Shown one piece after another: positions 1 to 63,669 of a stretch of 64,000 bases of DNA. A program made the position numbers and the translations under genes. The stretch lies in the IMG/VR virus record IMGVR_UViG_3300027754_000045, positions 1-64,000 of that record; one strand, written 5' to 3'. This stretch comes from a virus. The notes under the pieces are model-generated. The model was not told the DNA's origin, searched no databases, and saw nothing but the letters and a program-made list of their open reading frames with translations. Within the stretch, counting starts at the first letter, position 1. Every line of letters starts with the position of its first letter.

Positions 1-75
1 AACCACGCAGACCCCCCATCCCCATTCCCCCCTATTTGATTTTCATGGATCCCCCTCTGGAAATTTTTTTTTTTT

Positions 76-83
76 TATAAATA
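76..83 (+). promoter_or_regulatory. Late promoter box TATAAATA
   Basis: The sequence is an exact match to the T4 late promoter -10 element, preceded by a long T run. It ends 4 nt before the GTG start at 88. With T4-like geometry the transcript would begin at or next to the start codon. Confidence 0.75.
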
Positions 84-87
84 TATC

Positions 88-660
88 GTGCTATCCTTTA
101 TCCAATACCTCGCAGAAGCTAAAACTGCAATGGAGCGCATAGAGAGTCGTGCCCTGGCAAGAATGCGTAGACAACCTGCTCCAGCCGAGTCTCCTCTGGC
201 TTCTTTGCGCACACAATCACCTACACAATGGGGAACACACCCAGGAACCAAGTATTGGTATCACCCAGACACTCAGAAACTAGTACCTGTTGGAACCGAT
301 AATTATATCGGAATACACGCAGAAACTGTATCAGAGAACCCTGGTATATTTGGTGTTAAAAAGTCTAGCTCTAAAAATCCCATTCACGCCGCCATACAGA
401 ATGGCTGGGTGCGACTAGACTCCAGAGGATCAGGACTAACCCTGCAAGGAACTCAAACGCAATCTCATAAAGTGATAAGGGATCACTATGCAGCCACTGC
501 AGGAAAAATTCCAAAGTATTATGTGGATCATTTCACCAAAGACCAAGCATCACACAGCGGCATGTTGGCAGGTGCCGAACAGATTCAGCACTACGTTGAT
601 CATGCTGGCACTCCTCCCATGGGAGCAGGCTGGCGACACCAAACAGACGAACTGAACTAA
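88..660 (+). CDS. Candidate internal head protein with capsid-targeting leader (190 aa)
   Basis: The function of the body is unknown. Residues 1-11 (MLSFIQYLAEA) match the T4 internal-protein capsid-targeting sequence MKTYQEFIAEA in length, aromatic positions and the E10/A11 cut site. LAE|A fits the [LI]xE|[AG] rule of prohead protease gp21. The start is GTG, chosen because it creates this leader and lies 4 nt after a late promoter box. The middle, around residues 55-110, has a Tyr/His/Gly-rich section followed by a GWVR motif; no catalytic pattern was recognised. The base composition is visibly richer in G+C than genes after 2.1 kb, hinting at a different history. It is the first of a run of leader-bearing genes. 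That it is a packaged cargo protein is inference. Confidence 0.75.
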   Translation: MLSFIQYLAEAKTAMERIESRALARMRRQPAPAESPLASLRTQSPTQWGTHPGTKYWYHPDTQKLVPVGTDNYIGIHAETVSENPGIFGVKKSSSKNPIHAAIQNGWVRLDSRGSGLTLQGTQTQSHKVIRDHYAATAGKIPKYYVDHFTKDQASHSGMLAGAEQIQHYVDHAGTPPMGAGWRHQTDELN

Positions 661-675
661 TTCCGATAATATTTT

Positions 676-683
676 TATAAATA
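676..683 (+). promoter_or_regulatory. Late promoter box TATAAATA
   Basis: Exact match to the T4 late element, ending 4 nt before the ATG at 688. The spacing is the same as for the gene at 88. Confidence 0.75.
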
Positions 684-687
684 CGGT

Positions 688-1152
688 ATGCTATCCTTTC
701 TTCAGTACTTGACAGAAATACTGACTCCTCCCGAACAAGTTCCCCTGACGCACCCCGACACTGATTATTTTGAGAGTGACCACGCCAGCTATTTCAATCA
801 AGACCAAAGAGTAAGAACCAACATGCTTCGTTCAGCAACAGAACCCAGCTCTGCCTGGGTGGATTTCGCTGTGAAGGGCTTGACGAAAAAACCAACCAGA
901 CGCTCCGCACTAGGTGCCGTATCAAATCCAGCCACTATTACTCCTGCTTCCATGCAAGCCATGAACACTGTGCTGGGGCATGTGAAGCATTACCTGGACA
1001 CTAATGCAGCCGCAGGCTCTCCCATTAAAACACTGCAGTACCACACCGACGACGACGAACTTGGCGCAAGAAAACATTCCATCTATCAGAGAATGGCAAA
1101 AAAACTTGGCGTAAACACAGAGCGTGTCAGCACAATAGATCGCATGATTTAA
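688..1152 (+). CDS. Candidate internal head protein with capsid-targeting leader (154 aa)
   Basis: The protein opens with MLSFLQYLTE, nearly identical to the leader of the preceding gene, with Glu at position 10. Residue 11 is Ile rather than Ala/Gly, so cleavage there would be non-canonical. The C-terminal part (about residues 105-150) has an Asp-rich stretch (TDDDE) followed by a basic helix-like region (ARKHSIYQRMAKKLG), a layout I associate with a conserved T4-like phage family of unknown function. The gene is separated from its neighbours by short gaps, each carrying its own late promoter box, so each cargo gene appears to be transcribed separately. Biochemical function is not assigned. 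Confidence 0.72.
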   Translation: MLSFLQYLTEILTPPEQVPLTHPDTDYFESDHASYFNQDQRVRTNMLRSATEPSSAWVDFAVKGLTKKPTRRSALGAVSNPATITPASMQAMNTVLGHVKHYLDTNAAAGSPIKTLQYHTDDDELGARKHSIYQRMAKKLGVNTERVSTIDRMI

Positions 1153-1162
1153 ATAATATTAT

Positions 1163-1170
1163 TATAAATA
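1163..1170 (+). promoter_or_regulatory. Late promoter box TATAAATA
   Basis: Exact late element ending 7 nt before the ATG at 1178. The predicted leader would be 0-2 nt. Confidence 0.72.
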
Positions 1171-1177
1171 CAGTACA

Positions 1178-2107
1178 ATGAAGCCTTTTATTGAATATCT
1201 ACGAGAAGATGACCTCACACTAGAGTATCACGACACTCTGAATCCCAAAATTTGGGACGGAGACCAGCTAAAACCAGAAGTTCAGGCTAAATTGCTCCAG
1301 ATTGCCAAGAAATGGGCAGTTTTCGCCAAGATTCCAGACTTTGCGGTCACAGACATCATCCTGGTTGGTGGCAATGCGAACTACAACTGGACAAAATTCT
1401 CGGATCTTGACCTGCATGTCGTGGTGAATCGTGAAGATCTCGCTGATTGTCCTGATTTATTAGACGATTATCTGCAAAATAAAAAACAATTATGGGCCCT
1501 AGTGCACGACATCACCGTTTACGGTCACGACGTGGAGCTTTACGCTCAAGACAAGCAGACTGCTTACCCGAAAAAGCAGGGAGTCTACAGCATCAAGGAT
1601 AAAAACTGGATTGTGCAGCCAAAACATGAGGATGTGGACTTTCGTGGACCCGCTTTACTAGCAAAAGTGAAGCAGTACACGGAAAGAATCGACACCCTGA
1701 TCTCTACCAATGCCGAAGACGAGAGTTTTTCCAAATTAAAAGAAAAATTTAAAAATATGCGCTCCTCAGGCTTGAAAAAAATCGGGGAATTCTCTATGGA
1801 GAATTTAATTTTTAAAGAATTACGAAATCGTGGAGTAATTGACCGAATGACCCAGTATTTACAGTCACGACAAGACGAAAAACTGAGTCTGACCGAGAAT
1901 TATCCGTTTCAAATTCAGATTCACAAAAAAGACGGCAACAAATTAGTTGATGTGATGCAGTTAAACAGCGAAACCAAGTATAAAGCAATGTCCGAAGGAC
2001 TTCGCAGCATGCAATCCATTAAAAGAGAGTACCCGAATGTTGGAGAACATCACTTTTCTGTGAGATATCCGCACGACACGGATTGGATTGCTCCATCTTC
2101 AGAATAA
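1178..2107 (+). CDS. Nucleotidyltransferase-fold protein with capsid-targeting leader (309 aa)
   Basis: After the leader MKPFIEYLRE (E10) comes a nucleotidyltransferase-like domain. It has Gly-Gly at residues 64-65, the SDLDLH metal-binding pair at 75-80 and a third acidic position in DVELYAQD at about 119-125. This is the classic GG/GS-x(n)-DxD plus third-carboxylate layout of the Pol-beta/MNT superfamily. The region around 140-155 (VYSI...NW) and the C-terminal part (about 235-305) have no match I recognise. The leader is followed by DD, so gp21 cleavage directly after E10 would be non-canonical. With the leader and late promoter, the simplest inference is an enzyme packed in the head and delivered at infection, perhaps modifying a host nucleotide, RNA or protein. 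The substrate is unknown. Confidence 0.8.
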   Translation: MKPFIEYLREDDLTLEYHDTLNPKIWDGDQLKPEVQAKLLQIAKKWAVFAKIPDFAVTDIILVGGNANYNWTKFSDLDLHVVVNREDLADCPDLLDDYLQNKKQLWALVHDITVYGHDVELYAQDKQTAYPKKQGVYSIKDKNWIVQPKHEDVDFRGPALLAKVKQYTERIDTLISTNAEDESFSKLKEKFKNMRSSGLKKIGEFSMENLIFKELRNRGVIDRMTQYLQSRQDEKLSLTENYPFQIQIHKKDGNKLVDVMQLNSETKYKAMSEGLRSMQSIKREYPNVGEHHFSVRYPHDTDWIAPSSE

Positions 2108-2108
2108 T

Positions 2109-2116
2109 ACTAAATA
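2109..2116 (+). promoter_or_regulatory. Possible variant late promoter (ACTAAATA)
   Basis: A degenerate form of the late box lies 16 nt before the ATG at 2133, with an AAGGAA ribosome site in between. Weak match. Confidence 0.35.
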
Positions 2117-2132
2117 GAATAAAGGAAATTAT

Positions 2133-3695
2133 ATGAACCCGCTCCACCGATCTTTTATTCAACGTGCTGTTACTAAAAATAAACAATTAAAAGAAGCGGT
2201 TAAGTATGCTGCCACCACTAATCCTAGATTAGTTTCTCCTCGAATAGTGCCAGGTGCACCAAACTACGGAGCCAATAGAAATACTATGGTTGGTCTAGAG
2301 CATAGTTCTGCATTAGACCCAACCCTTATGCCAAGGACTGCCAAGCTTCTTGGAAGTTTAGATATGGCTGGTCCAGAAAAATCACAACCAAAAGATCCAA
2401 AAGAATTAATTGGCATGGTTCAGGGTCGCATGCAAGATAACCTTAACTTTACTTTAAATAGACACAGAGAAGAAAGTCTTAATAAAGAAATACACGAAAG
2501 AAGTCCACAGTGGTATTCTTCTGCTTCTAAAATGAATAAGGGTTTTGCAAAAAATGAAGGAGTCAGAGAAGATACTGCTCACGCTGTAACTGCTGCATTA
2601 TCTCCACAGACTCCATGGCCCACAAATGCATCAATGTCGGAAAGAATAATTCACACATACAAACAAAAAAGACATCTTCCTTTTTCTCCAGAAATGGGTA
2701 GTTTTGTTGATAAAATTACAGCAATGTCTACGGTGGATGGAAAAATGTCAGACCTACAACGACACATGTCAGAAATAAAAGGAAAGGGGTACAACGAACT
2801 TCCAACACTAGAACATAAAGCTGCGTGGATTCGTGCATACGACGAAGCGCACCATAGTCAAGCCTATAGAGAGCCTTTGCCAGACGGAGGATTTTCTAAA
2901 GATTTCATGAAAAATCAAGACGGAAAAAACACAAAAATGCAGTGGGGAAATCCATCAAATATTGCTAAAGCTTTATCTGTATTAGAATCTGAAGATAAAA
3001 TGAAATCAGATAAATCTCATACCGAAGATCATCACCTTGGAGTTATAAGTACTGCAGTTGGCGAAAATCCTAAAGTTCGTAGTTTTTATAATAACATGTC
3101 ACAGCCTGACGCTCCTCCAACAGCTGCTGGAGAAATGCCAGACGTTACTGCAGACATTCACACTAGTGCCGATGCATACGGTAGAGCAGACCTAACTTCC
3201 ATGTTACACACAAATAAAAAAATAAAAAGTGAAAGACCAGAATTTTCTAGAGATTTTGGTAAAATGGTTATGAGTGGTGCTCCTTCAAGTAAACAGTCTG
3301 GAAGTGTTGGACTGTATCCAGTTGTGGCTCAGGCAGTAACCAATGTAGGAAAACAAAGAGATCTGCGTGGAAGTCAAACACAATCTTTGGGTTGGGTTCC
3401 TAGAAAATTAGACAGCGAAGCAGTTCAAGCAAATCCTGCGGCAAGTAAACAAGTTCGTGATATGCATACCGCTATGAGTACTGGAGAATTGTCTCATCCA
3501 CAATTCTTAAAACAATACGGTAAGTTAATTGATACCTTACCAGCAAGAAAGCTTAGTTGGATAGGAACTCCTGCCAATGATATTTCCACTTCGTTTCAGG
3601 ATATCTCAAAAAGTAATAGAGTGATAACAGAACACACCAAGTGGATCACTAACTGGGTGAGTAGTCGATTACGACAAAAATATTTAATTAATTAG
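2133..3695 (+). CDS. Phage protein of unknown function, possible processed head protein (520 aa)
   Basis: A hydrophilic protein with no membrane segment. Residues about 150-175 contain a short motif (TAALSPQTPWPTN) resembling an uncharacterised phage family (DUF7178-like, from memory). The N-terminus is basic and helix-like, with LKE|A at residues 19-22, a possible gp21 cleavage site. It lacks the exact 10-residue leader of its neighbours, so membership of the cargo set is only suggested by position. An AAGGAA site precedes the ATG. The gene is more AT-rich than the genes before it. Its end overlaps by 8 bp the end of the convergent gene at 3688-4356, and no terminator lies between them. Confidence 0.7.
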   Translation: MNPLHRSFIQRAVTKNKQLKEAVKYAATTNPRLVSPRIVPGAPNYGANRNTMVGLEHSSALDPTLMPRTAKLLGSLDMAGPEKSQPKDPKELIGMVQGRMQDNLNFTLNRHREESLNKEIHERSPQWYSSASKMNKGFAKNEGVREDTAHAVTAALSPQTPWPTNASMSERIIHTYKQKRHLPFSPEMGSFVDKITAMSTVDGKMSDLQRHMSEIKGKGYNELPTLEHKAAWIRAYDEAHHSQAYREPLPDGGFSKDFMKNQDGKNTKMQWGNPSNIAKALSVLESEDKMKSDKSHTEDHHLGVISTAVGENPKVRSFYNNMSQPDAPPTAAGEMPDVTADIHTSADAYGRADLTSMLHTNKKIKSERPEFSRDFGKMVMSGAPSSKQSGSVGLYPVVAQAVTNVGKQRDLRGSQTQSLGWVPRKLDSEAVQANPAASKQVRDMHTAMSTGELSHPQFLKQYGKLIDTLPARKLSWIGTPANDISTSFQDISKSNRVITEHTKWITNWVSSRLRQKYLIN

Positions 3696-4356
3696 TTTTG
3701 TATGCGGCATCAATTGCTTCGTAGTACTTAGGATCTTCTTGGCGAGACGCACCACGCCAAGACTGAACAAATCTTTCACGATCTTGAGGCGACATTTCCT
3801 TGGTGTCATCAATCTTTAGTTCACGCATCTTTCCACGCATCACACCCGTTGCCATTTGTTGGTATGGTTTATGATATTTTTCATCACTCAGAGTGCCGCA
3901 ACCACCAGGACCACAAGCGTCTCCCACCTTTACATTACCTAACATGCTCTTTCCTTGGGCCACATACTGATTCACGTAATCCTCTTGTCCTTTAAACAGA
4001 TCAGGCTGTGTTCGCATAAAACCAGCAGCAGTTGATTTGGTAATTTGAACTGGACCATAGGCAGTGGATTTTCCTGATCTCTCTTTTGTTCTGATATATT
4101 GTCCTGCATTATAGTCTAAAGCATTTCCAATATCAGTTCCTCTGTGTTCTGCACCAACAAGAGCTTTATATAATTTTGTATTTTGTTCTCCACCAAAATG
4201 AGCATACGGATCCACTACTGGAGCAGCAGCTTGAGTTACGGGTGCGGCTGGTGCCTGTATAGGAGCGGTTTGTGGGCTTCCTGCCATCATGCCAGCAGCT
4301 AAAGCCATCGGAGCCAACAGGGAACCTTCTTGAATATATTCAATAAATGTTTTCAT
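3688..4356 (-). CDS. Transglycosylase/lysozyme-like head protein with capsid-targeting leader (222 aa)
   Basis: The leader MKTFIEYIQE|G is the best local match to the T4 targeting sequence: same length, MKT start, E10, and Gly at the cut. It is followed by a hydrophobic stretch (about 13-26) and an Ala/Pro linker (about 30-50). Residues 60-180 look lysozyme-like: a candidate catalytic Glu in GAEHRG (E70) and the STAYGPVQIT motif (97-106), like the Gly-x-x-Gln-Ile segment of lytic transglycosylases. A Cys pair flanks Gly-Pro at about 148-153. Family knowledge suggests peptidoglycan cleavage. Packaging in the head rather than the tail is inferred from the leader. The gene is divergent from the peptidase gene at 4389, sharing a 32-bp gap. 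Confidence 0.72.
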   Translation of the reverse strand: MKTFIEYIQEGSLLAPMALAAGMMAGSPQTAPIQAPAAPVTQAAAPVVDPYAHFGGEQNTKLYKALVGAEHRGTDIGNALDYNAGQYIRTKERSGKSTAYGPVQITKSTAAGFMRTQPDLFKGQEDYVNQYVAQGKSMLGNVKVGDACGPGGCGTLSDEKYHKPYQQMATGVMRGKMRELKIDDTKEMSPQDRERFVQSWRGASRQEDPKYYEAIDAAYKTN

Positions 4357-4373
4357 ATAAAGTATATATTTAA

Positions 4374-4381
4374 CATAAATA
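4374..4381 (+). promoter_or_regulatory. Late promoter box CATAAATA
   Basis: One mismatch to TATAAATA, ending 7 nt before the ATG at 4389. In the same 32-bp gap the minus strand carries a weaker TTAAATAT (4373-4366) for the divergent gene, so the gap may hold back-to-back late promoters. Confidence 0.55.
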
Positions 4382-4388
4382 ATGATGT

Positions 4389-4760
4389 ATGAAACGATTC
4401 ACCCAATACCTGACCGAGAATGCTTTGCTGGAATCTCATATTCAAAGCTTTATTGATTTTGCCAGCAATCACCTTGGTCTGAAAGATAAGCCAAAAGTTG
4501 ACTTGGTTCATGAGAGAGACAACACTATGACTACTGCTAGTTACTGCCCAGAGACTAAAATGGTAAAAGTATACGCAAAGGGTCGAGCTAGTTTTGATGT
4601 TTGTCGCAGTATTGCCCACGAACTGGTTCATGCCGACCAGCAAGAAAAAGGCGAATACTTGGACGGTGAAACTGGTTCGGATTGTGAGAATCATGCCAAC
4701 TCCATGGCTGGTCAAATTGTTCGTTTGTACGGTAAACAAAATCCAGACTTCTACGAGTAA
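4389..4760 (+). CDS. HExxH zinc metallopeptidase-like protein with capsid-targeting leader (123 aa)
   Basis: The protein opens with MKRFTQYLTE (E10), another copy of the cargo leader, here followed by Asn. The body carries the zinc-binding helix HELVH at 77-81 and a downstream GSDCENHANSMAG segment (about 96-108), whose Glu-100 could be the third ligand, as in gluzincin-type peptidases. The small, single-domain architecture is like short metallopeptidase-like proteins often found in T4-like aquatic phages. The leader and late promoter imply head packaging and release into the host on injection, or a role in head maturation. The target is unknown. The peptidase motif is clear; the delivery role is inference. 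Confidence 0.82.
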   Translation: MKRFTQYLTENALLESHIQSFIDFASNHLGLKDKPKVDLVHERDNTMTTASYCPETKMVKVYAKGRASFDVCRSIAHELVHADQQEKGEYLDGETGSDCENHANSMAGQIVRLYGKQNPDFYE

Positions 4761-54621: not shown

Positions 54622-55176
54622 ATGGCAGGAAATCATATAACAGACTTTATTACTAAATTTGGTGGTGGCACAAGACAAAACAGATTTCTTGTTTCTGGTA
54701 GTATTGGTGGTAGAGGCACTACTAAATTTTCTGATTTTACAAAAAATCAAATTCATGTCAGAGCAGCTAGCCTTCCTGCTTCTACTATCTCAGTAATTCC
54801 AGTTAATTGGAGAGGAAGAACGGTCAATTATCCAGGAGATAGAGTATATTCGCCATGGCAGATAACAGTTCTAGACGACAAACCAAAGGGCAAAGAAAGG
54901 CTATTTGAAGCATTTCATGCTTGGAGTAATGAAATAAATGATCACGGAACAAACGTTTCTAAATCTTTGGATTTAAAAAATCATTTCAGTACTGATTGGT
55001 CAGTAAGTCATTTAGACACTAATGGAAATACCACAAATAAACGCAATTTTATTTTAAAAAATTGTTGGCCAATTACCATTGGTGAAATTAGCCTAGATAT
55101 GGGAGCGGATAATACTCTTGTTAGTTTTGCAGTGGGTATAGCGTATAGTCACTTTGAATATGATGCAGTAACTTAA
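54622..55176 (+). CDS. 19: Tail tube protein gp19 (184 aa)
   Basis: Pattern: FGGGTRQNRFLVSGSIGG, FHVRAASLPASTISVIPVNWRGR-like (IHVRAASLPAS), YSPWQITVLDDKPKGKERLFEAFHAWSNEIN and the end VSFAVGIAYSHFEYD. gp19 stacks as hexamers to form the tube through which DNA passes. Directly after the sheath gene with an AAAGGA site. Length near T4 gp19 (163 aa). Confidence 0.95.
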   Translation: MAGNHITDFITKFGGGTRQNRFLVSGSIGGRGTTKFSDFTKNQIHVRAASLPASTISVIPVNWRGRTVNYPGDRVYSPWQITVLDDKPKGKERLFEAFHAWSNEINDHGTNVSKSLDLKNHFSTDWSVSHLDTNGNTTNKRNFILKNCWPITIGEISLDMGADNTLVSFAVGIAYSHFEYDAVT

Positions 55177-57604: not shown

Positions 57605-58252
57605 ATGAAGCTAATAACCGAAACATCTCAGGACGTTAAATTTCTAACCGAAGCCGCTGATGGTGGAGGAAAGAATTATTTCATTGAAGGTGTCTTTATG
57701 CAATCAGACACACTCAATCGCAACAAGAGAATGTATCCAACTCAAATTCTTATGAATGAAGCTCGTCGTTATGACCGAGAGTATGTTCAAAACAAGAGAG
57801 CATTTGGTGAGTTGAACCATCCAACAAATCCTGTTGTTAATTTGGATCGTGTTTCTCATATAATTCTAGAGTTCAGAAATAGCGGAAAAGATGTTCATGG
57901 TCGTGCAAAAATCATGGGTACTCCGATGGGAGAGATCGTAAAGAGTCTTATCAACGAAGGAGCTAGTCTTGGTGTGTCCACACGAGGAATGGGTTCATTG
58001 AGTCCAAAGAATGGTTACAGCGAAGTATGCAAAGATTTCACTCTTAGTGCAGTGGATATTGTTGCGGATCCTAGTGCTCCTGGTGCGTTTGTAAACGGCA
58101 TCATGGAAGGTAAAGAATGGATTTGGGACAATGGTATTTTGGTTGAACAAGAGATTGAACGATACCACAGAGAACTCAAGAAGACTTCGAGTAGACAATT
58201 AGAGGCAAAGGCAATTAAACTTTTTGAAAATTTTCTAAAACGATTAAAATGA
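57605..58252 (+). CDS. 21: Prohead protease gp21 (215 aa)
   Basis: A serine protease of the herpesvirus-assemblin fold, which cleaves core and shell proteins after [LI]xE. Catalytic His in GELNHP (H72) and Ser in LGVSTRG (S125); TLNRNKRMYP and SAVDIVADPSAPGAF are typical. Its own N-terminus has FLTE|AADG (E16), a likely self-cleavage site. It would process gp22, gp23 (ISE|A), the core proteins and, if the hypothesis is right, the capsid-targeted cargo of the left end. Confidence 0.96.
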   Translation: MKLITETSQDVKFLTEAADGGGKNYFIEGVFMQSDTLNRNKRMYPTQILMNEARRYDREYVQNKRAFGELNHPTNPVVNLDRVSHIILEFRNSGKDVHGRAKIMGTPMGEIVKSLINEGASLGVSTRGMGSLSPKNGYSEVCKDFTLSAVDIVADPSAPGAFVNGIMEGKEWIWDNGILVEQEIERYHRELKKTSSRQLEAKAIKLFENFLKRLK

Positions 58253-60651
58253 GTAAATCAAAATTCCAATCAGAAAAAGATAAACAACAATCAATATTTA
58301 ATTGTATTGGTTCGATTACTGGCAATTTGTCTGAAGCAGTTATTTCTAATACCAATCCTCTTGTTTTAAATAATAAAAAATCACAACAATCTCCATCATT
58401 TAATCAAACGGCATCTTCGCCAACATTTAATCAGACTGCATCTTCGCCAACATTTAATCAGCCTCAACCTGGAGTACAAGATGTTTGGAATCGGTTATTA
58501 TTACCAAAAAACCCACAACCAGTTGCTCCTGTTGCTGGTGTACAATCTAATATAGAAACAAATAAAACTAGCGGTTTAGGTTCTAGCCCAAATATTAATG
58601 GTGTATCAAAATCAATCAATAATCAATCTCAAACTAAAAAAACATTTAATAAATTTTTCAAAAGTTCGGCAACTAATGGTCAAGATATGGATTTGGCAGA
58701 TCAGATTACATTACATAATAACCGAGTAGCTCAACTTTCAAGAAATCCGTCAAGTCCAAATTTTGTAGGACCTCCAGCCCCAGGCAGAACACAAAGAGAT
58801 ACTATTGGCAATGATGTATTAGGAAATCCTGTAGTTAATGGGGTTCAGATGGATTCTCCGTTTAATAATTCAGCAAAAGTTCCGTTTAAATATGATTTTA
58901 GTGGTGACGCTGCTCCAAATCTTAATCTTAGTTCTAGTGGGAATAAAACAAATCCAGCAGCTCCTGCTGTGGCTCGTTTAGGTTATGGTGCTTCTGTTCG
59001 TACACCAAAAGCAGCATCAACATCTAAAAATGAGCAAACACCAATGCGTGGTGATGAAGATCAAGGAGCATCAGAAACAAATCAGATGATTACTCCTAAT
59101 TATTCAGGTGAAGCACAACATCAAGATATGTTTGCTGGTAGTGGTAGACCTGCAGATACTGATCGTCGTCCAGGAGGAGTAGAAAATGTTGCTGCAGGAA
59201 TTGTTAATAAACAAGATACTATAGGCACTCCTAATACAACTGGTACTGGTATTTTTACATCAAAAACAGGTGACTTTGCGGCTAAATCACAAAATAATAA
59301 TCCGCCATCTAATCCTGGCTTTATGACTTCTCCTCAAGGTGCACCTTCTCCTGAATTACCAAGGAGATCATCTCAAACTGGTGATTTTAAAGTTACTCCA
59401 ACAAATCCTAATACTCCAGCATCTAATCCTGGTTTTATGAGTTCTTCTCAAGGTTCTCCTGTGATTAACAGTAATCAATCTGTAGAACAAAGAGCCGATA
59501 AACAAACTGGAACCAATGGAAGAAATATTGGTGATATGCGAAAAGAAAACGAACAATATGCACAAGCAGCTAGAGATAGAGGAGAACCGCTTATTGGGTC
59601 TCCAGAATGGGTTACTTGGAATAGAGCAAAAAATCAAAAACGTCTTGATGATGCTGGAATTAACCAAACAGTAGATCAGGTAGTTTCTTCGCAAAAGAAA
59701 GAAGAGAGACAGATTGTTAATCCAGATGATTATCTGAAGAGATCTAAGCAAAGAGATGTTGCTGCTCCTTATGGAAGAAATGCTGATGGAAATGTATTAA
59801 CTTTTGACGATTATACCGAGAATCAAACAGTAAAGCTGGTAACGGCAGCAAAGCATGCAGAGCGAAGAAGAGTTGCAAGAGATCAAGCAGATCCTGAAGG
59901 AGCGAAAATAAGAGCTGCCAAGAGCCTGGAAAATTTAGAATTATACGGTAATGATAATAGAGGCAACAGAAATACTGGTGGCGGCGGTGGTGATATAGCA
60001 AACAGAGCTGGAAATCAGCCGATGACGGAAGGTTTTTCAGATGTTCTTGGGATGCTTGGTAAAAGTGCAGTTGTTGCTGCAACAACTCCTTGGGGACAAG
60101 CAACGTCTTATGGTTTAGGTGCTATGGGGGATATAGGATATGATCCTGCGAACGTAAAACAACAAGGAGATCATTATTCCAATATATTATCTGGAGGAGG
60201 TAATTTATCAAAATATTTTATTAATAAAATACCTGGAGCAAAAAATCTACCTCTAATAGATCCTATTGGTGTAGCGGCGGGAGGTGTTCTTAACCAACTT
60301 CCTAAACATTTAGTGCGAATGGCATTTGATCCAAGATCCGAATATAAATCAAACTATAAATCAAACATAGAGACTACAGATACTTCAAAAGAAAATGCTA
60401 AGAAAGAACCAGATACCACAACAGGAACTTCAACAGAACCTTCAACGGAACCTTCAACAGGAACTCCAGCAAAAAAACTAAAAAAACCAGCAAAAAAACC
60501 AGTAGAAACTTCAGAAGGACCTGAGGCGACAGAGACAGGTCGTAAACCAGGAACAGACTCTACTTGGGAAGCTAATGCCAGACTACTAGACACAAATTAC
60601 AAAACTCGAAAAGCAGGAGTCGCAGATGCGGCAAAAATATCACTAGCTTAA
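58249..60651 (+). CDS. Low-complexity head-cluster protein with domain shared with 24112 gene (800 aa)
   Basis: Lies between gp21 and gp22, where T4 has nothing of this size. Mostly Asn/Ser/Pro/Gln-rich and probably disordered, with internal duplications (e.g. SNPGFM-x-SPQG twice). Residues about 500-560 contain the APYGR, TENQTVK, KHAERRR and ADPEG segment shared with the minus-strand gene at 24112. A Lys/Pro/Thr C-terminal tail has TEPS repeats. NLSE|A at 26-30 fits the gp21 cleavage rule, so it may be an internal or core protein. Overlaps gp21 by ATGA. Confidence 0.65.
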   Translation: MSKSKFQSEKDKQQSIFNCIGSITGNLSEAVISNTNPLVLNNKKSQQSPSFNQTASSPTFNQTASSPTFNQPQPGVQDVWNRLLLPKNPQPVAPVAGVQSNIETNKTSGLGSSPNINGVSKSINNQSQTKKTFNKFFKSSATNGQDMDLADQITLHNNRVAQLSRNPSSPNFVGPPAPGRTQRDTIGNDVLGNPVVNGVQMDSPFNNSAKVPFKYDFSGDAAPNLNLSSSGNKTNPAAPAVARLGYGASVRTPKAASTSKNEQTPMRGDEDQGASETNQMITPNYSGEAQHQDMFAGSGRPADTDRRPGGVENVAAGIVNKQDTIGTPNTTGTGIFTSKTGDFAAKSQNNNPPSNPGFMTSPQGAPSPELPRRSSQTGDFKVTPTNPNTPASNPGFMSSSQGSPVINSNQSVEQRADKQTGTNGRNIGDMRKENEQYAQAARDRGEPLIGSPEWVTWNRAKNQKRLDDAGINQTVDQVVSSQKKEERQIVNPDDYLKRSKQRDVAAPYGRNADGNVLTFDDYTENQTVKLVTAAKHAERRRVARDQADPEGAKIRAAKSLENLELYGNDNRGNRNTGGGGGDIANRAGNQPMTEGFSDVLGMLGKSAVVAATTPWGQATSYGLGAMGDIGYDPANVKQQGDHYSNILSGGGNLSKYFINKIPGAKNLPLIDPIGVAAGGVLNQLPKHLVRMAFDPRSEYKSNYKSNIETTDTSKENAKKEPDTTTGTSTEPSTEPSTGTPAKKLKKPAKKPVETSEGPEATETGRKPGTDSTWEANARLLDTNYKTRKAGVADAAKISLA
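58397..58461 (+). repeat. 27-bp tandem repeat, 2.4 copies, within the 800-aa gene
   Basis: Units at 58397-58423 and 58424-58450 differ at two or three bases; a partial third ends at about 58461. Codes for FNQTASSPT. Confidence 0.9.
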
Positions 60652-60701: not shown

Positions 60702-61619
60702 ATGGAACCACAAAATAACAATGTTGCTCAACCGTCTAATGTATTGATTGATGCTCGTACATACACCAAGGATGCTTCTGGTAAAGGAGTTGTTCTTGGT
60801 ACTGAAGATTTGAGCTGGCTTGAGGGTCGTGCTCAACAGAATCAAGGCAGTCTTCGCCCAATGAGCGGAGGCGTAGAAGCTCCACCTCCACAAGGAGCAC
60901 AGGCTGCAATGAACGAACAACTTCAGAATCTTTTTAGTGGTGAAAATCTTTCCGAAGAATTCATGGGCAAGGCTTCAGTTGTATTTGAAGCTGCTCTGAA
61001 CGAAAGAACCGAAACGATTCGTCAAGCCATGTTGACCGAAGCCAGCACTCTTGTGGAACAAGAAGTCGGCAATGCAGTCAATGAACTTGCCACACGTTTA
61101 GATGAATATCTGAGCTATGCTGTGGATGAGTGGATGAAGGAAAACAAGTTGGCTGTGGAGAGCGGTATTCGCACAGAAATTTCTGAAAGCTTTATCAGTG
61201 GTCTCAAGTCGTTGTTTGAAACACACTACATTGAAGTTCCAGAAAACAAGCATGATATTCTTGAGGATCTGTTCTCAGAGAATCAAGAACTAGAAACCAC
61301 ACTGAACGAGCAGATTCAAACAAACATGAAGTTTAAGCAAGAACTTGACCAAGGTGCTGCACGAGCAGTATTCATGGAAGCAGTTTCGGACTTAACTCAA
61401 GTTGACGCAGAGCGTCTTGCTAGTCTTGCAAACAGTATCAACTACACAAGCCCACAAGAATTTCACAACAAGCTTGTGGTACTTAAGGAAAATTATCTCA
61501 AGGCAGCACCAGTTGTTGCAAGAGAACCAGAAACATTGACCGAACAAAAGATTATTCCACAAGCGGATAGTTTGATGTCTGGTTATGTACATGCACTTGG
61601 TCGTCACTCAAAGAAGTAA
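60702..61619 (+). CDS. 22: Prohead scaffold (core) protein gp22 (305 aa)
   Basis: The main scaffold around which the gp23 shell forms, later digested by gp21. Helical, acidic, with a Gly/Pro-rich N-terminal part and long coiled stretch (about 85-240). Its motifs FSGENLSEEFMGKASVVFEAALNERTETIRQAMLTEA and VDEWMKENKLAVESGIRTEIS are typical of gp22 of T4-likes. LTE|A at residue 113 and FME|A near the end fit the protease rule. Less AT-biased codons, as for gp23. Confidence 0.92.
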   Translation: MEPQNNNVAQPSNVLIDARTYTKDASGKGVVLGTEDLSWLEGRAQQNQGSLRPMSGGVEAPPPQGAQAAMNEQLQNLFSGENLSEEFMGKASVVFEAALNERTETIRQAMLTEASTLVEQEVGNAVNELATRLDEYLSYAVDEWMKENKLAVESGIRTEISESFISGLKSLFETHYIEVPENKHDILEDLFSENQELETTLNEQIQTNMKFKQELDQGAARAVFMEAVSDLTQVDAERLASLANSINYTSPQEFHNKLVVLKENYLKAAPVVAREPETLTEQKIIPQADSLMSGYVHALGRHSKK

Positions 61620-61671: not shown

Positions 61672-63096
61672 ATGGATTTCAATCAGAACTCATCGTACGA
61701 CACTTTACTAGAAAAATGGGACCCCCTTCTCAATCACGAGTCGATCCCTTCAATTCAAGATTCATACAAGAAGAAGGTAACTGCCGTCCTCTTGGAGAAT
61801 CAAGAAGTTGCTTTGCGTCAACAATACATCTCAGAAGCCAACACCATGGGTGGTAATTTTACTACTGGTCAAGTTGGTTCCGCAGGTAATCTTGCTGGTT
61901 ACGATCCAATCCTTATCAGCTTGGTTCGTCGTAGCATGCCAAACTTGATGGCTTATGACATTGCAGGCGTTCAGCCGATGAGTGCTCCTACGGGCCTTAT
62001 CTTTGCAATGCGCAGCCGTTATGACGGTACTACTCTTGGCGGAGAAGCTCTCTTCCAAGAACCATACGCAGCATTCTCTGGTTCAGGTAACGGTGCTACT
62101 GGTGCCGCTTCTGGTGTTACAGGTGCTTGCCAAGGCGTAGATCCTTCTTACGGTGGCACAGGTTCACAAGCTGGTGGTAGTGTACTTCGTGCTGACGGTT
62201 TAACCTTTGGTATTCGCAACGCTTCATTTAACATGGGTGCCTTTAGAGGCATGTTAACGGGAGAAGGCGAATCTCTTGGTGGCTCTGGTGCTAGCAAGGT
62301 TTTCCGAGAAATGGGTTTCAGCATTGAACGTATCGCTGTCGAAGCAAAGACACGTGCTCTCAAGGCAGAATACACAACTGAATTGGCTCAAGACTTGAAG
62401 GCTGTTCACGGCTTAGACGCTGAGAGCGAACTTGCTAATATTCTTAGCACTGAAATTCTCAACGAAATCAATCGTGAATTGATCTACACTCTTTATCGTG
62501 TAGCCAAGACTGGTTGTGGTCAAGGTGATCTTTCTACTGCTGGTGTTTACGATCTCAATACGGATTCAGATGGTCGCTGGAGCGCAGAACGCTTCCGTGG
62601 TCTGATGTTCCAAATTGAACGTGAAGCCAACGTCATTGCAAAGGAAACTCGTCGTGGTAAGGGTAACTTTATTGTTTGCTCTTCAGACGTTGCTTCTGCT
62701 CTTGCAATGGGTGGTTTCCTTAATGTCAGCCCAGCACTAAACGTGCAACTTGAAGTTGATGATACTGGCAATACGTTTGCTGGTATTCTTAACGGCAAGT
62801 TCAAGGTTTACATCGATCCTTATGCCAAGACCAATGCCAACTTCGTAATGGTTGGTTATCGTGGAGCAAGTCCATACGATGCTGGCGTGTTCTACTGCCC
62901 ATACGTTCCTCTCCAAATGGTGAGAGCCGTTGATCAGTCAACATTCCAACCAAAGATTGGATTTAAGACTCGTTACGGTATGGTTCAAAATCCTTTTGCT
63001 GATAATGCAGCGGGTATTGATACTGTTGGTTCAAATCAGTACTATCGTATCTTTGCAGTAAGTAACTTGCATGGTAACACAGGTTTCGGACTTTAA
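61672..63096 (+). CDS. 23: Major capsid protein gp23 (474 aa)
   Basis: HK97-fold shell protein. The N-terminal delta region (1-55) ends at QQYISE|ANTMGG, an IxE|A site like the T4 cleavage that triggers expansion. Then DPILISLVRRSMPNLMAYDIAGVQPMSAPTGLIFAMRSRY, diagnostic for T4-like gp23, EMGFSIERIAVEAKTRALKAEYTTELAQDLKAVHGLDAESELANILSTEI, and a C-terminal YCPYVPLQMVRAVDQSTFQPKIGFKTRYG. Length near T4 gp23 (521 aa). No separate gp24 vertex gene is seen in this window. Confidence 0.98.
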   Translation: MDFNQNSSYDTLLEKWDPLLNHESIPSIQDSYKKKVTAVLLENQEVALRQQYISEANTMGGNFTTGQVGSAGNLAGYDPILISLVRRSMPNLMAYDIAGVQPMSAPTGLIFAMRSRYDGTTLGGEALFQEPYAAFSGSGNGATGAASGVTGACQGVDPSYGGTGSQAGGSVLRADGLTFGIRNASFNMGAFRGMLTGEGESLGGSGASKVFREMGFSIERIAVEAKTRALKAEYTTELAQDLKAVHGLDAESELANILSTEILNEINRELIYTLYRVAKTGCGQGDLSTAGVYDLNTDSDGRWSAERFRGLMFQIEREANVIAKETRRGKGNFIVCSSDVASALAMGGFLNVSPALNVQLEVDDTGNTFAGILNGKFKVYIDPYAKTNANFVMVGYRGASPYDAGVFYCPYVPLQMVRAVDQSTFQPKIGFKTRYGMVQNPFADNAAGIDTVGSNQYYRIFAVSNLHGNTGFGL

Positions 63097-63123: not shown

Positions 63124-63152
63124 GGGGAGGCCTTAAAAAGCCTCCCCTTTTT
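63124..63152 (+). terminator. Rho-independent terminator after gp23
   Basis: An 8-bp GC-rich stem (GGGGAGGC/GCCTCCCC) with loop CTTAAAAA and a run of five T. Confidence 0.92.
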
Positions 63153-63156
63153 GTTA

Positions 63157-63164
63157 TATAAATA
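63157..63164 (+). promoter_or_regulatory. Late promoter box TATAAATACTAT
   Basis: Matches the extended T4 late consensus and ends 4 nt before the ATG at 63169; no room for a ribosome site. It starts just after the gp23 terminator, so the next mRNA is likely leaderless. Confidence 0.82.
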
Positions 63165-63168
63165 CTAT

Positions 63169-63669
63169 ATGGCAACAATCCCAGCAACACATAATGCACT
63201 TATAGTCAATTATTTTCAATTTGTTTTGGATAGAGTTCCTAATATGTCATATTTTTGTCAAAGTGCAAACCTTCCAGGAATAGCATTTGGATCAGCAGAA
63301 CAACCAACTGTTTTGGGTCATCCAGTCAAAGTTCCTACAGGAGCATTTCGGTTTGAAGATCTTGAACTGACTTTTCGTGTTGACGAGAATTTAACAAATT
63401 GGAGAGAGATACATAACTGGATTAAAAGTATTGGAAATTATGATTCTGATGAAGACACTCTTCCGTATGATAAAAAAACATCAGATGCTGATTTGTCGAT
63501 AACCAACAGTTCTTATCGTCCAAAAATTAATATACATTTCAAGCACGTATTTCCCATTTCTTTAAGTGGTTTAAATTTTAATACTACTGCTATAGACTCT
63601 ATGGAAATGACTGCTACTGTAAAATTTGCATTTACTGGTTATGAAATTAAAAATTTAGTTACTCCTTAA
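63169..63669 (+). CDS. Second tail-tube-fold protein (166 aa)
   Basis: The pattern NYFQFVLDRVPNMSYFCQSANLPGIAFG, VKVPTGAFRFEDLELTFRVDENLTNWREIHNWIKSIGN, and MTATVKFAFTGYEI is of the gp19/tail-tube superfamily, with rim strands, the DE-N-x-x-x-x-x-I-x-x-WI helix and a C-terminal strand. It is distinct from gp19 at 54622 and from the 25581 gene, so the window has three tube-fold proteins. It could be a tail-terminal or baseplate tube component. Start is ATG 63169; upstream codons lie in the promoter. Confidence 0.78.
   Translation: MATIPATHNALIVNYFQFVLDRVPNMSYFCQSANLPGIAFGSAEQPTVLGHPVKVPTGAFRFEDLELTFRVDENLTNWREIHNWIKSIGNYDSDEDTLPYDKKTSDADLSITNSSYRPKINIHFKHVFPISLSGLNFNTTAIDSMEMTATVKFAFTGYEIKNLVTP

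Follow-up and report, generated by a model that had tools for sequence, protein, structure and literature searches.

What does a common N-terminus do on five neighboring phage proteins that are otherwise unrelated? The question is raised by a stretch of 64,000 nucleotides (hereafter the window) that forms bases 1–64000 of the 153,850-base virus record IMGVR_UViG_3300027754_000045. A preliminary description of this DNA pointed to genes starting at 88, 688, 1178 and 4389 on the plus strand and at 4356 on the minus strand, and proposed that their products share a leader that directs them into the phage head and, eventually, into the host.

The leader-bearing block and its phage

All five open reading frames and their leaders are present at these positions (Table 1). 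The leader takes the form M-x-x-F-x-[QE]-Y-[LI]-x-E, i.e., ten N-terminal residues with an aromatic residue at positions 4 and 7, L/I at 8 and E at 10. Across the whole record, the strict pattern occurs in the five block genes and in one further gene outside the window (118335–118709, minus strand, MKSFREYLKE). These six observed starts compare with a chance expectation of 0.0045, estimated by shuffling columns over 1,819 candidate starts, and the maximum over 2,000 such shuffles was a single match. The bodies that follow the leader, grouped in a variable locus, are unrelated as claimed: once the leader is removed, no pairwise similarity is significant (best E = 0.36).

Table 1. Positions of the block genes, their upstream promoter elements and the head genes of the window
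Feature	Position	Strand	Remarks
Late promoter TATAAATA	76..83	+	4 nt before start codon of gene 88
Leader gene 1 (gene 88)	88..660	+	190 aa; GTG start; MLSFIQYLAE|A at 88–117; mature body pI 9.5
Late promoter TATAAATA	676..683	+	4 nt before start codon of gene 688
Leader gene 2 (gene 688)	688..1152	+	154 aa; MLSFLQYLTE|I at 688–717
Late promoter TATAAATA	1163..1170	+	7 nt before start codon of gene 1178
Leader gene 3 (gene 1178)	1178..2107	+	309 aa; MKPFIEYLRE|D at 1178–1207; pol-beta/MNT-type nucleotidyltransferase
DUF7178 protein	2133..3695	+	520 aa; inside block; no leader; Shine-Dalgarno present
Leader gene 4 (minus-strand gene)	3688..4356	-	222 aa; MKTFIEYIQE|G at 4356–4327
Variant TTAAATA	4367..4373	-	10 nt before minus-strand gene start; promoter role uncertain
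Late promoter CATAAATA	4374..4381	+	7 nt before start codon of gene 4389
Leader gene 5 (gene 4389)	4389..4760	+	123 aa; MKRFTQYLTE|N at 4389–4418; HELVH metallopeptidase-like body
gp21-type prohead protease (phrog_207)	57605..58252	+	own site KFLTE16|A; codon 16 at 57650–57652
gp22-type scaffold (phrog_237)	60702..61619	+	[LI]xE sites: 11 vs 5.0 expected
gp23-type major head protein (phrog_138)	61672..63096	+	cut site QYISE55|A; codon 55 at 61834–61836

The first and last 152 bases of the record are identical at 151 positions (window 1–152 versus genome 153699–153850), so that the map is effectively circular and the left end of the window arbitrary; despite being classed as linear, the genome is probably a complete one with circular permutation. 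It belongs to a T4-like phage, with genes for the portal, gp21-type protease, gp22-type scaffold, gp23-type head protein, sheath and tube at 53–63 kb and a gp55 homologue at 66518–66841 of the record. Its gp23 is at most 56% identical to that of cultured phages, the nearest being Kyanoviridae, and the first 8 kb have no DNA-level relative in the phage collection. The phage thus encodes both a gp21-type protease and a gp22-type core with L/I-x-E sites, and its own gp21 and gp23 do carry matching cut sites (FLTE16|A and YISE55|A). Between the protease and the scaffold lies a gene for an 800-aa Asn/Ser/Thr/Pro-rich protein (58249–60651) with no PHROG or phage match and one L/I-x-E site versus 2.7 expected. 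Two tail-tube-like genes, both of phrog_45, are found at 54622–55176 and, directly behind gp23, at 63151–63669.

The nucleotidyltransferase of the block matches phrog_36119 (E 5e-84), retains an invariant catalytic pattern (G64, S75-D76-x-D78, E120) and displays both the G[SG]...D-x-D motif and the nucleotidyltransferase fold. Its score against Pfam NTP_transf_2 is 20.9 bits, just below the cut-off of 21, and its structure model (pLDDT 82) finds as best Foldseek match AAD(9) (E 1.8e-3, low TM); the nearest folds, all with weak scores, are aminoglycoside adenylyltransferases and the MNT antitoxin. In the minus-strand protein, a pattern noted by eye only, E70...GKSTAYGPVQIT, recalls lysozymes and transglycosylases. 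The protein has no Pfam, PHROG or PDB match, no lysozyme or lytic transglycosylase domain or fold was found in it, and AlphaFold2 (AF2) with three sequences gave no usable fold (pLDDT 43); the peptidoglycan-hydrolase idea therefore stays a motif-level guess. The body of gene 88 has no known homologue, and that of gene 688 is weakly related to a leader-bearing protein at locus L031 (25%, E 3e-4). The label "multi-enzyme" given to the block hence holds for one member backed by fold and family and for one with a clear HExxH motif, and not for the hydrolase suggested by eye or for the two bodies without assignable function. The picture of a five-gene block also needs correction, as the 520-aa gene at 2133 lies inside it without a leader. 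No plausible RNA element was found in the block except a tRNA.

The leader and the T4 capsid-targeting sequence

The internal proteins of phage T4 carry the capsid-targeting sequence MKTYQEFIAE|A, and gp21 cleaves after L/I-x-E. The first ten residues of T4 IPIII suffice for entry into the head, and mutations in this protein assign residues 4 and 7 to targeting and residues 8 and 10 to processing, with Asp10 blocking the latter (PMC9026906). The fixed positions of the leader, F4, Y7, L/I8 and E10, are those mapped in IPIII, and the same pattern recovers T4 ipII and ipIII.

Searching IMG/VR with a pattern of TATAAATA-N2-9-ATG followed by the leader, we recovered at least 119 stretches, compared with 9 when Asp replaces Glu at position 10 and 23 when the promoter is scrambled (some of these being the same loci), though the contigs may be redundant and the three figures are therefore not independent counts. 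The leader alone gave 47 matches over 46 whole records versus 1 with a reversed control. Several tagged genes stand together at many environmental loci, and family matches of tagged bodies elsewhere include nucleotidyltransferase, HAD phosphatase/NT5C nucleotidase, zeta toxin, FMN reductase, DnaJ, methyltransferase and DUF7178. Applied to nine reference T4-like genomes, a looser pattern matched 11 times versus 5 times for the control, which points to few tagged genes in cultured T4-like phages and to a multi-gene block that is not universal. Two matches in Caulobacter phage Cr30 were discarded as chance, as neither lies at an annotated gene start. In T4 itself, gp61.1 (NC_000866 18966–19130, minus strand; 54 aa, hypothetical) starts with the capsid-targeting-like MKTFKEFIKE, and from this N-terminus we predict that it is an internal protein of T4.

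The leader is also found on cytidylyltransferases of cyanophages (P-SSM2 gene 194, Syn9 gp184 and genes of MA01 and DSL-LC02). Mass spectrometry of S-SM1 virions detected this family, designated T4-GC190 (PMC3037559). In S-SM1 its gene (recovered as L288) starts MKKFSAFLNE|AERS. In 48 distinct T4-GC190 N-termini F4, F7, L8, E10 and position 11 are invariant while position 9 varies; the search used six peptides, among them MKKFSAFL, so that positions 1–8 are biased but position 10 is not. The presence of T4-GC190 in S-SM1 virions shows packaging of a tagged protein only, and not its cleavage or injection. Neither the leader nor a probable cleavage comes up in the passages on this family in PMC3037559, and the literature searched contained a single, unrelated mention of the leader in cyanophages. 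Were T4-GC190 cut after Glu10, it should yield the peptide AERSFAAK from residue 11, whereas the uncut form would yield FSAFLNEAERSFAAK only. Like the block, T4-GC190 (S-SM1, Syn9, P-SSM2) joins an enzyme to this leader; unlike the block, it is a single core gene of cyanophages.

The leader therefore behaves as the preliminary description had it, namely like the T4 capsid-targeting sequence: it keeps the residues with assigned roles in IPIII, strongly favors Glu10 over Asp10, sits on late-promoter genes and is borne by the virion protein T4-GC190. Targeting and cutting as in T4 are, with good probability, the best explanation for it. Another origin for the likeness would be a recent tandem duplication whose bodies were replaced later, leaving a leader without targeting function. 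The adjacent genes 88 and 688, which both begin [GA]TGCTATCCTTT, would fit such a history. Against it, the similarity of the leader DNA in the window stands at the level expected from amino acids and codon usage (161 observed versus a recoded mean of 164), the same residues recur in unrelated phages, T4 ipII/ipIII and T4-GC190, and Asp10 is rare; we give this origin scarcely any credence. Since the codons are no more alike than the amino acids demand, the likeness is kept at the protein level. Exchange at the DNA level at the leader, considered for the window, is likewise not supported, the similarity being only what codon usage predicts.

The individual late promoters ascribed to the block genes stand for the four plus-strand members, each with [TC]ATAAATA 4–7 nt before its start; the minus-strand gene has only the variant TTAAATA at 10 nt. 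Among 68 tagged genes (from 80 loci and this genome), 50 have TATAAATA exactly 5 nt before the ATG, and as this set was chosen with the octamer 2–9 nt upstream, only the peak inside that range is informative. The same 5 nt is the commonest spacing at untagged starts (27/99), which were not so chosen, and scrambled octamers show no such peak. T4 late promoters occupy -13 to -6 (PMC1524935); together, this geometry and the 5-nt spacing predict transcripts that start at the AUG, i.e., leaderless late mRNAs. Late octamers 2–7 nt (mode 5) before the ATG, without a Shine-Dalgarno, are seen at many late genes, tagged or untagged (e.g., window 43164, 63157, 55186 and 32865; genome 97434, 98714 and 132167; loci L011–L090), while other late genes have a spacing of 14–22 nt and a Shine-Dalgarno. 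One gene with the octamer 4 nt upstream (genome 97446–98711) codes for a collagen-like repeat protein starting MKRFYNYFQST, which is leader-like without Glu10.

This promoter arrangement bears on a further alternative, in which the leader takes the proteins to another destination (membrane, tail or baseplate) or serves leaderless late mRNAs at the start of translation. With most tagged genes having TATAAATA 5 nt before the ATG and no Shine-Dalgarno, the first codons might indeed matter for initiation. However, late genes of the same phages without the leader have equally close promoters and no such motif, operon-internal tagged genes without a promoter (L027, L047, L073) keep the leader, and the motif, which ends in the gp21 site, is a pattern of protein sequence. 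This alternative thus appears very unlikely.

Modularity of the tag and fused precursors

The tag is a transferable unit: within one slot the bodies change, and a given body can occur with or without it. In the slot that lies beside, and faces, the metallopeptidase gene 4389, upstream DNA that is 90–93% identical precedes bodies that are 27–28% identical; for the window and L018, the upstream identity is 90% and the bodies differ. IMG/VR contains 78 relatives of the nucleotidyltransferase encoded by gene 1178, most of which start without the leader; the freshwater Synechococcus relatives that were checked also lack it, and some of these adjoin replication genes. DUF7178 is untagged at 2133 and tagged in L048 (a 31%-identical homologue). 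Other homologues keep the leader: those of gene 4389 in L132 and L133 (52–54%) and in the cultured phage B23 (38%; leader MNYKQFLRE, one residue shorter), and that of the minus-strand protein in L041 (45%). No further relatives of this last family occur in the phage collection, nor did the final scan of IMG/VR bring any.

In the two closest relatives, L018 and L131, the nucleotidyltransferase forms the C-terminal part of tagged proteins of 783 and 798 aa. The fusion junctions (IKPFIRFLSE|EDLTLEYH and IKPFLKYLTE|EDLTLEYH) align with the start of gene 1178 (MKPFIEYLRE|DDLTLEYH). One additional internal site, DYITE|D, lies in a tagged repeat protein of 2,120 aa from L018. Overall, internal [FY][LI]xE sites in tagged bodies number 7 versus 9.1 expected, a depletion that is not significant; they are informative only in that three of them fall at leader-like junctions. 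The tagged giant proteins, of up to 2,120 aa, consist of HEAT-like repeats of about 33 residues (HSDPAVALAALAHKDAD...TTHYAA; L018 2950–9312 and 9320–11671; L131 6906–9302).

Probable head cargo and its possible delivery

The same tag loads T4 proteins into the head and is then cut off; the block proteins are thus probably carried in the particle and delivered with the DNA. We infer packaging and cleavage of the five proteins with good support. Each protein would be bound into the prohead core of gp22 type through residues 4 and 7, and cleavage after Glu10 by the gp21-type protease would then free five different proteins inside the head: a nucleotidyltransferase, a metallopeptidase, a possible peptidoglycan hydrolase and two without an assigned role. 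The fused precursors keep an internal copy of the tag that the protease could cut. The freed proteins probably leave the head with the DNA and may act early on the host or its defenses. Ejection and effector roles are drawn from T4 Ip1–3, all of which are injected and inhibit type IV restriction enzymes (PMC12373910).

Some features fit this reading less well. The pI of the mature bodies is 9.5, 8.9 and 8.7 in three cases and 6.0 and 5.4 in the other two, whereas T4 internal proteins are small and basic, a trait that is typical of the kind though it may not define it, and the relative's 2,120-aa tagged protein would be a lot for passage through the portal. The tagged proteins might instead be scaffold-like components of the prohead core that are targeted, cut and then expelled or kept in the head, without any action on the host. 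T4 IPIII contributes to morphogenesis, internal proteins reside with gp22 in the T4 core (PMC9026906), and large repeat proteins occur among the tagged bodies elsewhere, all of which would suit a core component. A conserved core is, however, unlike bodies that differ between close relatives; enzymes with intact motifs (nucleotidyltransferase and HExxH here; HAD phosphatase, zeta-like kinase and methyltransferase elsewhere) also argue against it, as does the action of T4 Ip1–3 in the host (PMC12373910). We accordingly consider a purely structural role rather unlikely.

Among the closest known parallels, T4 IPI/IPII/IPIII share with the block the leader residues 4, 7, 8 and 10, unrelated bodies, clustered variable loci and a gp21-type protease with a gp22-type core. 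The block bodies differ in being larger, partly acidic and in some cases predicted enzymes, close relatives of the block have fused precursors with internal leader copies, and most of its genes have a late promoter right at the start codon. T4 Alt, an ADP-ribosyltransferase, is similar by description, being a head enzyme that is cleaved by gp21 and, once injected, modifies a host target, but has a 7-residue propeptide (PMC9026906). An ART-like YHxT start, recognized by eye only, is seen on five bodies from other phages. The propeptide ejection proteins of phiKZ-like phages (SPN3US) are likewise described as head proteins cut by the prohead protease and delivered into the host, but belong to a separate giant-phage head lineage.

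The statement that such a block is little described was too strong. In T-even phages, at least ten internal proteins with nothing in common but the leader are encoded at two variable loci (Repoila 1994, as cited in PMC12373910 and PMC3012670); as multi-gene leader-tagged loci are thus known, the block is not a new system. The searched literature yielded no enzyme-bearing cassettes outside the T-evens and no internal leader sites in fused precursors. What is new here is a block that is partly enzymatic, modular and outside the T-evens, and whose close relatives have fused precursors containing further copies of the leader inside them.

More tentatively, in environmental T4-like phages a single 10-residue tag might serve as a general delivery platform for a shuffled multi-enzyme payload, with fused precursors split at internal tags, late leaderless mRNAs beginning at the start codon of the tag, and proteins injected to act before any phage gene expression; we hold this wider picture to be possible rather than probable. 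Sequence alone seldom reveals which phage proteins are injected. If the tag is a reliable mark of packaging well beyond the T-evens, it would offer a simple handle on candidate injected effectors in the genomes of uncultured phages, and would predict that two known genes, those of T4 gp61.1 and of the cyanophage cytidylyltransferase, encode proteins that are cleaved and carried in the head.
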